The position numbers were made by a program, and so were the translations under genes. This document shows positions 53,083-56,297 of a stretch of 64,000 nucleotides of DNA, in pieces (position 1 is the first letter of the stretch; every line of letters begins with the position of its first letter). The stretch is taken from positions 372,001 through 436,000 of the forward strand of contig NZ_JACLZF010000001.1 in the NCBI RefSeq assembly GCF_014243345.1. The letters run 5' to 3'. This DNA comes from Robiginitalea sp. SC105. GTDB taxonomy: Bacteria > Bacteroidota > Bacteroidia > Flavobacteriales > Flavobacteriaceae. Below the pieces are notes generated by a model. That model searched no databases, had not been told where the DNA came from, and saw only the letters and a list, made by a program, of their open reading frames with translations.

Positions 53083-54981
53083 ATGAGTGATGCCATCAAG
53101 CACGAATGCGGGATTTCCCTCATTCGCCTCCTCAAACCCCTGGAGTACTACCAGGAGAAATACGGCTCTGCCTTCTACGGGGTAAACAAGATGTACCTCA
53201 TGATGGAGAAACAGCACAACCGCGGGCAGGACGGGGCCGGTTTCGCGAGCATCAAATTGGACATGCACCCGGGGGAACGCTACATGAGCCGTGTCCGTTC
53301 GAACGCCTCCCAGCCCATACAGGATATCTTTGACCAGATCAATGCCCGCATCAACACCGCCCTAAAGGAACATCCGGAGGCCGTGGACGATGTGGCATGG
53401 CAAAAGAAAAACATCCCCTACGTGGGCGAACTGCTTCTGGGCCATGTCCGGTACGGGACCTTTGGCAAGAACAGCATCGAAAGCGTCCACCCCTTCCTCC
53501 GGCAAAACAACTGGATGCACCGGAACCTGATCGTGGCAGGCAACTTCAACATGACCAACGTCAACGAGTTGTTCGACAACCTCGTGCAACTCGGGCAGCA
53601 TCCCAAGGAACTGGCCGATACGGTTACAGTGATGGAAAAAATCGGGCACTTCCTGGATGATGCCGTTTCCAAGATCTACAAGCAGATCAAGAAGGAGGGC
53701 TATACTAAAATTGAAGCCTCGCCCAAGATCGCCGAAAGGCTCAAAGTTTCCAAGATCCTGAGGAAATCGTCCAAGAACTGGGATGGCGGCTACGCCATGG
53801 CGGGATTGCTCGGGCATGGGGATTCCTTTGTCCTACGGGACCCATCGGGGATCAGGCCGGTTTACTATTACGCCGACGACGAAGTGGTGGTGGTGGCTTC
53901 GGAGCGGCCTGCCATCCAGACCGTCTTCAATACGGCTTACGAAGAGGTGAAGGAACTCCCCCCTGGAAACGCCATCATCATCAAGAAAAGCGGGGAGGTA
54001 CGCATACGGGAAATCCAGGAGCCCCGGGAGCGAAAGGCCTGTTCCTTTGAGCGCATCTATTTTTCCCGCGGCAACGACAAGGAAATCTACCAGGAGCGGA
54101 AAGAACTCGGGAAGCTGTTGTTCCCCCAGATCCTGGAGGCGATCAACCACGATATCAAGAATACGGTCTTTTCCTATATCCCCAACACGGCAGAGACCTC
54201 CTTCCTGGGGATGCTGCGGGAGGCGCAGAATTACCTGAACGCCAAAAAAGAAGAACAGATCCTCGCCCTGGGGCCGGATATCACCCGGGAAGAACTCCAC
54301 AATATCCTCGAGGTGCGGCCCCGTATTGAGAAGGTGGCGATCAAGGATGCCAAGCTCAGGACCTTCATCACCCAGGACAGCAGCCGGGACGACCTGGTTG
54401 CACACGTATACGACATCTCCTACGGCTCGGTGGCCAAAGGCGATTACCTGGCCATTATCGACGACAGTATCGTCCGGGGGACGACCCTTAAAAAAAGCAT
54501 CCTCCGCATACTGGACCGCCTGGAGCCCCGCAAGATCATCGTGATCTCCTCGGCCCCCCAGATCCGCTACCCGGATTGCTATGGCATCGACATGGCCAAA
54601 CTGGAGGATTTTATCGCCTTCCGCGCTGCCCTGGAACTCCACAGGGAACGGGGGACCATGCACGTGGTAGAGGATATCTACAGGAAGTGCAAGGCGCAGG
54701 TAACCAACAAGGATAAGGAAGCCATTAACCACGTAAAGGAATTTTATGCCGCTTTCAAGACGCAGGAGCTCTCCGACAAGATCGCAGAATTGCTGAGCCC
54801 GCCCGAGATCCGAGCCGAAGTCCAGATCATCTACCAGACCATCAGCAATCTGCACAAGGCCTGCCCGGACAACCTTGGAGACTGGTATTTTACCGGCGAC
54901 TACCCCACCCCTGGGGGAAACCGCGTCGTAAACCAGGCATTCATCAACTTTTACGAGGGGAAAAACCAACGGGCCTATTAG
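53083..54981 (+). CDS. purF: Amidophosphoribosyltransferase, long Bacteroidota form
   Basis: The 632-residue protein has an N-terminal class II glutamine amidotransferase domain (CGISLIRLLKP, with Cys9 as the likely mature N-terminus, and RGQDGAGFAS). A phosphoribosyltransferase domain follows with the PRPP loop LAIIDDSIVRGTTLKKS (about 460-476). It makes 5-phosphoribosylamine, the first step of purine synthesis. It is longer than the roughly 500-residue E. coli enzyme; extra residues lie between and after the domains. A related long form is usual in flavobacteria, often beside a canonical purF. Confidence 0.88.
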   Translation: MSDAIKHECGISLIRLLKPLEYYQEKYGSAFYGVNKMYLMMEKQHNRGQDGAGFASIKLDMHPGERYMSRVRSNASQPIQDIFDQINARINTALKEHPEAVDDVAWQKKNIPYVGELLLGHVRYGTFGKNSIESVHPFLRQNNWMHRNLIVAGNFNMTNVNELFDNLVQLGQHPKELADTVTVMEKIGHFLDDAVSKIYKQIKKEGYTKIEASPKIAERLKVSKILRKSSKNWDGGYAMAGLLGHGDSFVLRDPSGIRPVYYYADDEVVVVASERPAIQTVFNTAYEEVKELPPGNAIIIKKSGEVRIREIQEPRERKACSFERIYFSRGNDKEIYQERKELGKLLFPQILEAINHDIKNTVFSYIPNTAETSFLGMLREAQNYLNAKKEEQILALGPDITREELHNILEVRPRIEKVAIKDAKLRTFITQDSSRDDLVAHVYDISYGSVAKGDYLAIIDDSIVRGTTLKKSILRILDRLEPRKIIVISSAPQIRYPDCYGIDMAKLEDFIAFRAALELHRERGTMHVVEDIYRKCKAQVTNKDKEAINHVKEFYAAFKTQELSDKIAELLSPPEIRAEVQIIYQTISNLHKACPDNLGDWYFTGDYPTPGGNRVVNQAFINFYEGKNQRAY

Positions 54982-54988
54982 TGTATAA

Positions 54989-55024
54989 ATCGATGAAATG
55001 CATAAAAAAGTGCATTTCATCGAT
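54989..55024 (+). terminator. 14-bp hairpin after purF
   Basis: ATCGATGAAATGCA (54989-55002) pairs perfectly with 55011-55024 across TAAAAAAG. No T-run follows, so it may be a processing or stability element rather than a true terminator. Confidence 0.55.
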
Positions 55025-55073
55025 AATTTGGGTATTTCAGCGGGTTTCTCAGCGGGGGCGACAGGAACCCCAC

Positions 55074-55086
55074 TACTTTAGATTCG
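55074..55086 (+). promoter_or_regulatory. Promoter box region, sRNA copy 1
   Basis: Two overlapping candidates are present: TACTTTAG (55074-55081), ending 5 nt before the conserved block, and TAGATTCG (55079-55086), directly adjoining it. No good -33 element is visible 19 nt upstream. GGAACCCC at 55064-55071 is repeated before copy 2. Confidence 0.4.
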
Positions 55087-55158
55087 CCATAGCATAAGTA
55101 GGTTAAGTTCATGGTAAGATTTGGGGCAAAAAAGGTGGATTCTTATCCACCTTTTTTA
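55087..55158 (+). ncRNA. Putative small RNA, tandem copy 1
   Basis: The 40-nt conserved block (55087-55126) starts CCATAGCATAAGTAGG and ends ATGGTAAGATTTGGGG. It is followed by an intrinsic terminator: AAAAAA, stem GGTGGAT (55134-55140) with ATCCACC (55145-55151), then TTTTTT. The block is identical to that of copy 2. No translated product is apparent, and function is unknown. A 4-bp CCAT/ATGG pairing could close a loop around the most conserved part. Confidence 0.75.
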
Positions 55159-55293
55159 TTTCCCCCCATCGGGTTCCAGTCCATACAAGGGAGAAAGTTC
55201 GCACAGCGGGCGCACTTCCCTTTATCCACACGTAAGAAGCTTCCACTCCCCCTTGCATTTCAACGGATTTAACCGGTGTTCAACCGATTCATT

Positions 55294-55324
55294 TTTCCCG
55301 GTGGAACCCCCTGCATTATATTCG
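55294..55324 (+). promoter_or_regulatory. Promoter, sRNA copy 2
   Basis: TTTC (55294-55297), 19 nt, then TATATTCG (55317-55324) follow the Bacteroidota promoter layout with mismatches. The box ends 5 nt before the conserved block. Confidence 0.5.
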
Positions 55325-55329
55325 TAGGA

Positions 55330-55401
55330 CCATAGCATAAGTAGGTTAAGTTCATGGTAAGATTTGGGGAAAAAGGCAGAGTTTCTACTCTGCCTTTTTT
55401 A
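55330..55401 (+). ncRNA. Putative small RNA, tandem copy 2
   Basis: The 40-nt block at 55330-55369 is identical to copy 1. It is followed by its own terminator: AAAAAGGCAGAG (55370-55381) pairs with CTCTGCCTTTTT (55388-55399), loop TTTCTA. The stem sequence is entirely different from copies 1 and 3, but the architecture (A-run, stem, T-run directly after the block) is the same. Confidence 0.78.
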
Positions 55402-55498
55402 TGTTGAGCGTCAAACGTTTATCCTTCCAAACCTCAGTATTCCTCCCCTTTTGGCCCCCGTTTTTGGGCATCTGCTCCTTAAATAATTGTCAATTTTC

Positions 55499-55529
55499 TT
55501 TGTTATTTCTCTTTATACCAGTAATTTAG
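55499..55529 (+). promoter_or_regulatory. Promoter, sRNA copy 3
   Basis: TTTG (55499-55502), exactly 19 nt, then TAATTTAG (55522-55529) is the best consensus match of the three. The box ends 6 nt before the conserved block. Confidence 0.6.
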
Positions 55530-55535
55530 TATTTG

Positions 55536-55606
55536 CCATAGCATAAGTAGGTTAAGTTTATGGTAAGATTTGGGATGAAAAGGGCAGGGTTTCTCTGCCC
55601 TTTTCT
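55536..55606 (+). ncRNA. Putative small RNA, tandem copy 3
   Basis: The block at 55536-55575 differs from copies 1 and 2 at only two positions (C to T at block position 24, G to A at 40). Its terminator pairs AAAAGGGCAG (55578-55587) with CTGCCCTTTT (55595-55604), loop GGTTTCT. It has the best promoter match of the set. Confidence 0.78.
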
Positions 55607-55639
55607 GTTTCCCGCCGGCAGCCGATTTTACGCCGGGCC

Positions 55640-55667
55640 AAAAAAAAACCCCGGCTCAGGGCCGGGG
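55640..55667 (-). terminator. Rho-independent terminator of the superoxide dismutase gene
   Basis: CCCCGGC (55649-55655) pairs with GCCGGGG (55661-55667). It is followed on the minus strand by nine T residues (55648-55640). Confidence 0.9.
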
Positions 55668-55688
55668 CTCGTTTACGAGACGGGGATA

Positions 55689-56297
55689 TTATTTATGCGC
55701 TGCATAATTCTTCGCCACTTCTCCCCAGTTGATCAGGTTAAAGAACGCTTCGATATACTCCGGGCGCCGGTTCTGGTAATGCAGGTAATAGGCATGCTCC
55801 CAGACATCGATCCCCAGAATCGGGTATCCGCCGCAACCCACTCCGGGCATCAACGGTACATCCTGGTTCGGGGTGGAACAAATTTCCACCTTTCCGCCGG
55901 GGTGGACACAGAGCCATGCCCAACCGGATCCGAAACGGGTGGCTGCCGCGTTGCTGAAAGCGTCTTTGAATTTTTCATAGGATCCGAAAGCGCTGTCGAT
56001 GGCTTTGCCGAGGTCACCGGAAGGCTTTCCTCCCCCGTCCGGGGAAAGGATTTTCCAGAACAGGGAGTGGTTGAAAAAGCCACCTCCGTTATTCCGGACC
56101 GCCGTATTGTTCATATCGAGGTTCTTCAGGATATCCTCTATGGATTTTCCCGCAAGGCCGGTCCCCTCTATCGCCGCATTCAGCTTTGAGGTGTAGCCGT
56201 TATGGTGCTTTGTATGGTGGATTTCCATGGTGCGCGCATCGATATGCGGCTCCAGGGCGTCGTACGCATAAGGTAAATTCGGAAGTTGAAATGACAT
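55689..56297 (-). CDS. sodA: Fe/Mn superoxide dismutase, probably Mn type
   Basis: The 202-residue protein starts [20 protein letters not shown]. Metal ligands are visible in [11 protein letters not shown] (His), NHSLFW (His) and [15 protein letters not shown] (Asp, His). The sequence [11 protein letters not shown] resembles the TPNQDNPLM of Mn or cambialistic enzymes, so manganese is favoured, though not proven. No signal peptide is present, so it is cytosolic. It has a TAGTTTTG box upstream and a strong terminator. Confidence 0.94.

Follow-up and report, generated by a model that had tools for sequence, protein, structure and literature searches.

A conserved tandem small RNA array between purF and sod in Flavobacteriaceae with predicted LytTR control and a putative antisense sponge

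PrrF1 and PrrF2 are tandem duplicate small RNAs (sRNAs) of Pseudomonas under iron/Fur control, the Qrr RNAs are controlled by sigma-54 and LuxO and are represented by a family in Rfam, and the protein-titrating RNAs CsrB and RsmZ carry repeated GGA motifs in their loops. According to the description in PMC9732341, Vibrio cholerae possesses four homologous Qrr sRNAs within a signaling pathway, and a separately encoded sponge RNA with its own transcription regulator, QrrX, pairs with the conserved pairing domain of the Qrr RNAs. For Flavobacterium psychrophilum, 85 newly described RNAs are reported in PMC9723704; in the same account Rfp18 and other Rfp RNAs are conserved beyond one species and are thought to pair, in the case of Rfp18 via the third stem-loop. 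LytTR regulators are described as binding two direct or inverse repeats of 9-11 nt that are 11-13 nt apart, and the YpdB-type site of Escherichia coli as a direct repeat of GGCATTTCAT (PMC4847170). Post-transcriptional control in Flavobacteriaceae is little explored. Here we describe an sRNA array in a window of 64,000 nucleotides, the whole stretch of DNA that was analyzed. Judged from its sequence and that of its relatives, the array likely provides multicopy, LytTR-controlled, trans-acting regulatory RNAs which are counteracted by an antisense sponge, resembling Qrr and QrrX in its working and unrelated to them in sequence.

Three units between purF and sod

Three complete units were found on the plus strand at positions 55074-55606, in each of which a 40-nt block stands between a -7 promoter box and an intrinsic terminator (Table 1). 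This composition supports the proposal of a preceding sequence-only reading that three tandem paralogous sRNA genes are located here, and its details on the blocks were confirmed: copies 1 and 2 are letter-identical at the given coordinates, while copy 3 carries two changes (C to T, G to A). Allowing up to three mismatches, the genome contained exactly these three block copies and no match to the reversed pattern. As also stated before, every block is followed by an A-run/stem/T-run terminator, and the stem sequences differ between the units. The predicted transcript begins with a weak hairpin, in which CCAUAGC pairs with GUUCAUGG around the loop AUAAGUAGGUUAA, continues with the single-stranded linker GGUAAGAUUUGGGG and ends in a strong terminator hairpin of drifting sequence. 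Copy 1 scored 98 bits against the covariance model R1, which was built from relatives. On 16 distinct variants 95.5% of the cells of the 5' stem were paired. The search for compensatory changes across species, which had been suggested as a check, yielded no two-sided change in the 5' stem on these 16 variants; all pair-keeping changes were one-sided, and the 5' stem is not proven as a conserved structure.

Table 1. Features of the purF-sod locus in the window
Feature	Position	Strand	Basis or remark
Upstream neighbor, glutamine amidotransferase domain (purF)	53083..54981	+	ORF; Pfam GATase_7 4.8e-07
Inverted pair ATCGATGAAATGCA / TGCATTTCATCGAT upstream of copy 1	54989..55024	.	14 nt, 100% complementary
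LytTR-like direct repeat, copy 1, half-sites TTCATC-N14-TTCAGC	55016..55041 (55016/55036)	+	
-7 promoter box TACTTTAG, copy 1	55074..55081	+	Sequence and aligned-consensus position
sRNA copy 1: 5' hairpin region, linker GGTAAGATTTGGGG, terminator	55087..55158	+	Ends inferred
40-nt block, copy 1	55087-55126	+	
Terminator arms, copy 1	55128-55140/55145-55157		Computed
LytTR-like direct repeat, copy 2, half-sites TTCAAC-N14-TTCAAC	55259..55284 (55259/55279)	+	
-7 promoter box TATATTCG, copy 2	55317..55324	+	Sequence and consensus
sRNA copy 2	55330..55400	+	Ends inferred; R1 model match
40-nt block, copy 2	55330-55369	+	
Terminator arms, copy 2	55370-55382/55387-55399		Computed
-33 TTTG element, copy 3	55499..55502	+	19 bp before -7 box; last-copy consensus
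-7 promoter box TAATTTAG, copy 3	55522..55529	+	Sequence and consensus
sRNA copy 3, last-copy type (AAGTTT, GGGA)	55536..55605	+	Ends inferred; R1 model match
40-nt block, copy 3	55536-55575	+	
Terminator arms, copy 3	55578-55587/55595-55604		By eye
sod, iron/manganese superoxide dismutase, convergent, downstream	55689..56297	-	ORF; Pfam Sod_Fe_C 1.1e-40

The sequence-only reading had left open whether the block exists beyond this one locus. Using a 34-nt core with up to three mismatches, it was found in 100 of 299 Flavobacteriaceae genomes, representing 84 of 236 genera, in one to seven copies, and the reversed core gave no match among the matches listed. Because of these counts, and of three copies versus no reversed match in the own genome, the block is not a chance occurrence. 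A scan with genus names returned, among the matches listed, Maribacter, Zobellia, Muricauda/Flagellimonas, Arenibacter and Cellulophaga, and furthermore Eudoraea, Kordia, Lacinutrix and Robiginitalea. A total of 364 copies were collected from loci L001 and L004-L152, and 338 distinct copies with at least 80 nt of upstream sequence, from 141 loci, were kept. One 34-letter core is common to 216 of them, 77 carry the last-copy variant and 25 a third form. The terminators vary between copies while the core stays constant, in agreement with the earlier suggestion that the conserved 5' block would be the active part and that the terminator stems drift. When the model R1 was run on 296 genomes of the order, E-values below 1e-8 were obtained, among the matches listed, for 40 of 50 genomes of the family, including 23 of 25 genomes of one large genus, probably Flavobacterium; nothing better than 7.6e-4 was observed in the other families of the order represented among the 296 genomes. 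By this model, diverged forms of the array reach further within Flavobacteriaceae than the 34-nt core does.

The chromosomal setting is conserved as well. A purF homologue was present upstream in 130 and a convergent sod homologue downstream in 116 of 150 loci, a set which includes some loci cut short and a few genomes twice; after merging of identical contexts the numbers were 124 and 111 of 144. The recurrent array neighbors in the matches listed included no conspicuous LytTR gene. Two plus-strand ORFs of at least 60 amino acids overlap the units (55121-55327 and 55560-56189). A match to a protein-coding family, which would have spoken against the RNA genes, was looked for in both, and no Pfam family was found at E-values up to 0.001. 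We consider it very improbable that the units represent a repeated DNA element, an attenuator or a small ORF instead of a regulatory RNA. The sequence ATG-GTA-AGA-TTT-GGG follows the hairpin region in most copies and would fit such an interpretation; however, inspection by eye indicated that the frame past the block is not preserved between copies. The missing Pfam family, the own promoter and terminator of each unit, the fixed locus and the lack of an exact match to the block in the viral contigs searched also argue against it.

The sequence-only reading did not recognize the family of the block, and neither did Rfam 15, with no match at the gathering threshold for the whole window and exclusively below-threshold matches for 4 kb around the array. 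The latter (SorY, DapZ, STnc40 and others) were rejected, since they rest largely on the terminator hairpins. The Qrr family was not among the Rfam matches of the whole window or of the 4-kb region. A search of the main texts of the open-licence literature with the block sequence returned no paper, and nothing recognizable as the purF-sod locus appeared among the matches listed from the open-licence literature on flavobacterial, tandem or sponge sRNAs and on LytTR.

Promoter types and LytTR-like repeats

The spacers between the blocks had been regarded as free of repeats. This did not hold, as half-site pairs precede copies 1 and 2 and an inverted ATCGATGAAATGCA pair precedes copy 1 (Table 1); both these regulatory repeats and the distinct promoter of copy 3 were missed by the first reading. 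In the 338-copy set the upstream regions sorted into groups. For first and middle copies, TT(C/T)A(A/T)C half-sites piled up around positions -75 and -55 relative to the core, in most cases at a spacing of 20 bp. Using slightly relaxed 6-nt cores and a period of 19-21, a half-site pair was scored in 167 of 262 copies (75 of 138 first copies, 92 of 124 middle copies); averaged over twenty dinucleotide shuffles, the expectation was 0.8 first and 1.1 middle copies. Under the definition used the pair was not present in 95 of the 262 first and middle copies and in none of 76 last copies. Flavobacterium-like copies carried it in 13 of 20 cases (L171-L190, duplicates retained). Last copies share a different, fixed promoter, represented in the window by the TTTG element of copy 3, and first copies often carry additional inverted sites, for which ATCGATGAAATGCA and its inverse are the example in the window. 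Compared with the described LytTR sites, copies 1 and 2 of the window possess the repeats and copy 3 does not. The array repeats, TGCATTTCATCGAT and similar sequences with a period of about 20, resemble the YpdB-type site as it is described for E. coli and are putative binding sites of a LytTR regulator. A Pho-type box, considered for the array promoters, was dropped in favor of the LytTR-like spacing of 20 bp. When TTYAWC-N14-TTYAWC was used to look for a regulon in this genome, 8 matches were obtained versus 7 controls, and beyond the array site none of them indicated a shared regulon.

The motif ATCGATGAAATGCA was found enriched, with 112 matches versus 8 reversed controls in eight genomes (G000 and seven others) at up to one mismatch. 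Among 30 loci inspected (L305-L334) it occurred near a 5-formyltetrahydrofolate cyclo-ligase gene in three genomes (own-genome protein, Pfam 3.5e-32), and also near genes named by eye as encoding fasciclin-like and TPR proteins. These genes form a candidate ATCGATGAAATGCA regulon.

A complementary RNA encoded near yidC

Searching 10 Robiginitalea genomes with the complement of the linker, 25 non-array matches were obtained versus 9 controls. Inspection of 20 of the 25 led to a partner RNA and not to mRNAs: five represent one intergenic site, adjoining yidC or one small gene away, with the own-genome site at G000:C2:747720, outside the window. At these sites the antisense stretch is preceded by a -7-like box and followed by a terminator, and at one locus the yidC product was matched to Pfam 60KD_IMP (6.1e-53). 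A pattern excluding the array gave 52 matches in 31 of 59 array-bearing genomes of other genera, versus 4 controls. All 52 were inspected; 19 genomes contained the same kind of gene, and in 14 of these the convergent ORF that comes next is a YidC-like tail. Many of the remaining matches were ends of repeated elements. Four tandem partner copies were found in genome G129. The partner RNA is complementary to the linker of the array and to the 5' hairpin of the block, and four of its loci had no Rfam match up to an E-value of 0.1. As a conserved, block-complementary RNA is encoded elsewhere in the genome, the antisense option among those offered by the sequence-only reading is favored.

A recurrent mRNA target was not found with the complements of loop and linker in the 10 Robiginitalea genomes. 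The hairpin-loop complement was not enriched (8 non-array versus 35 control matches, a control count that may be inflated by the LytTR-like TTCATCC in the reversed loop), and the only 5'-leader-like linker-complement matches among the 20 loci inspected were single ones at L200 and L201 of one genome. At L202 and L207, from two Robiginitalea genomes, a match to the linker complement with one mismatch shares its sequence with the last part of an ORF and with the beginning of a large ORF downstream, which may reflect coding constraint only.

The 13-mer CCCAAATCTTACC was additionally observed in other surroundings. In many genomes it stands at the edge of a repeated hairpin element (CTTTGCGCATGGATCCTGT...ATAGGGCGCA; L211, L213, L214, L216, L217, L221, L228, L239, L242, L243, L250, L251, L253, L258), by coincidence or mimicry; a 157-aa ORF adjoining this element at L243 matches Pfam DUF6730 (7.5e-25). 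Related CCCAAATCTTACC-AAAACTAA sequences were seen at L192, L193, L197, L220, L227 and L230. They precede a tyrosine recombinase gene at L193 (Pfam Phage_integrase 3e-40), end in GCGAGG-type repeats at L220, L227 and L230, and are possibly integron-like recombination sites.

Because the earlier partner copies had been chosen by the 13-mer, a promoter-only model was built from the 72 nt upstream; it was trained on the copies found by the 13-mer and contains none of the 13 letters. At E-values up to 1e-5 it detected 42 of 299 family genomes, all of them within the 54 with at least three array copies, and none of 46 genomes with one or two copies or of 199 without array. No partner match at this cutoff was obtained for 12 of the 54. 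Extending the list to an E-value of 0.01 gave 101 genomes, which beyond the 42 were mostly at chance level. The weaker matches in G150 (7.2e-5) and G225 (1.9e-4), where the antisense is present with two mismatches, look real. G150 has two array copies, so that with weak matches counted the partner occurs in 1 of the 46, and G225 is among the 12 of the 54.

Having been found through the exact 13-mer, 21 of the 42 genomes match it by construction. In the other 21, scored with a slide of up to 8 nt, mismatches to the linker complement numbered 0 in one genome, 1 in twelve, 2 in four, 3 in three and 6 in one; thus, 13 showed at most one and 20 at most three, while the reversed 13-mer never had fewer than four. 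The next 22 nt of the partner, never used for selection, paired with the array hairpin region better than shuffles in 18 of the 21 (p below 0.05; mean z -3.92), compared to 1 of 21 for the reversed hairpin (mean z +0.27). For all 42 genomes the number was 34 with a mean z of -3.72 (33 and -3.78 in a first run), versus 3 of 42 and +0.09 for the reversed hairpin; the 27 partner copies collected first had given 18 with a mean z of -3.3, versus -0.15. G126 is an exception, as its linker block is lost and its hairpin block pairs strongly (z -7.5). The full duplex of the own genome reached -38.4 kcal/mol versus -14.3 for shuffles, with the selected 13-mer included. With G126 excluded, 19 altered sponge 13-mers show 29 single departures, 16 of which keep a G-U pair; this is no more than suggestive. 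We regard this complementarity, observed in two blocks and conserved between genomes, as the strongest evidence for the predicted base pairing of the array RNA.

In the Flavobacterium-like lineage an attempt to find compensatory co-change of array and antisense failed, with matches to a fitting antisense in 4 of 30 genomes versus 12 control matches. A partial check of the yidC locus in 30 genomes (12 loci scored in one pass) revealed the antisense RNA in G011 only.

Two other assignments of roles have to be weighed here. An unlikely one reverses them, with the yidC-side RNA regulating mRNAs and the purF-sod array acting as its multicopy sponge. The complementarity itself is symmetric, and array copies usually outnumber partner copies, though G129 has four of each; yet the array occurs in one- and two-copy genomes where the model found no partner (apart from the weaker match in G150), Flavobacterium-like genomes keep arrays without matching antisense, and the array sequence is more constrained than the 3' part of the partner. 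Somewhat less probable still is that the block binds and titrates a protein in the manner of CsrB or RsmZ and that the antisense RNA merely tunes its amount. A short block in several copies with extreme conservation would suit this role, but the 40-nt block, as read from its sequence, contains no repeated GGA, and the partner RNA, with its complementarity in two blocks, is conserved. The array RNA as the regulator and the yidC-side RNA as its sponge remain our preferred assignment.

A second locus with linker complement lies beside a LytTR regulator. Robiginitalea and others encode a REC-LytTR protein (Pfam Response_reg 1.9e-20, LytTR 2.3e-18), and in the intergenic stretch 3' of its gene, CACAACA-type repeats with a spacing of about 21 bp are accompanied by ATCGATGAAATGCA-like sites; some genomes additionally have the linker complement there. 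At E-values up to 1e-60 each of 10 sponge-bearing genomes contained a single copy of this regulator, and 20 other genomes had none; 14 of these 20 had been searched with the partner model without a match up to 1e-5. The co-occurrence may reflect one shared clade. Since arrays with half-sites exist without this regulator, the activator of the array is probably another LytTR protein. In the intergenic region between the REC-LytTR gene and a TPR-protein gene (L199, L203, L205, L248, L295-L304; for L248 the downstream gene side alone was inspected) CACAACA repeats were observed, in some cases with a short terminated linker complement. The antisense stretch of 10 such loci had no mismatch in one, two in three, three in one and four or more in five. 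It is weakly kept and was therefore left outside the main claim.

Proposed regulation and comparison with known systems

We propose that the three units redundantly encode one small regulatory RNA of about 70 nt that acts in trans, and that each unit is transcribed from its own promoter to its own terminator as read from the sequence. Their motifs suggest that the earlier copies would be switched on by a LytTR-type response regulator at the direct repeats upstream of the -7 box, and that the last copy, having a separate fixed promoter, would be controlled differently. Two stretches of the array RNA would engage in base pairing, the linker GGUAAGAUUUGGG, which is single-stranded, and the hairpin-loop sequence AGUAGGUUAAG. 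In many lineages with at least three copies, the yidC-side RNA, predicted to be expressed from its own conserved promoter, would bind the array RNAs and neutralize them as a sponge. A much more tentative extension, which we consider rather doubtful, is a two-RNA switch across this Bacteroidota family, in which tandem sRNAs driven by one LytTR system would be opposed by an antisense sponge under another, perhaps the REC-LytTR one, the antisense at the regulator locus would close a feedback loop, and copy number and sponge would have coevolved. A conserved RNA at one locus in dozens of genera, together with a promoter code and a partner, offers a way into signal, regulator and targets.

Compared with described systems, the array shares with PrrF1 and PrrF2 the tandem duplication of sRNAs; it differs in having up to seven copies and no sign of iron/Fur control, the neighboring sod being merely a matter of location. 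The Rfp RNAs, as far as described, are likewise flavobacterial sRNAs conserved beyond one species and presumed to pair, and a relative of the array RNA may be among the 85 RNAs reported with them. By the same description Rfp18 uses a third stem-loop, whereas an array unit has two predicted hairpins. The comparison with Qrr, made already in the sequence-only reading, holds on the sequence evidence collected here. Control differs, with LytTR-like sites at the array and sigma-54/LuxO for Qrr. Measured against the published description of Qrr and QrrX, several sRNA copies and a conserved complementary RNA encoded apart, here with predicted sponging, are common to both, while the sequences are unrelated and the present copies stand in tandem at one locus in another phylum. 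Should the sponge interpretation be correct, the array would add a second, independent example, from outside Vibrio, of a multicopy sRNA family that has a dedicated sponge; in this example the sponge was observed only in genomes with several copies of the sRNA.
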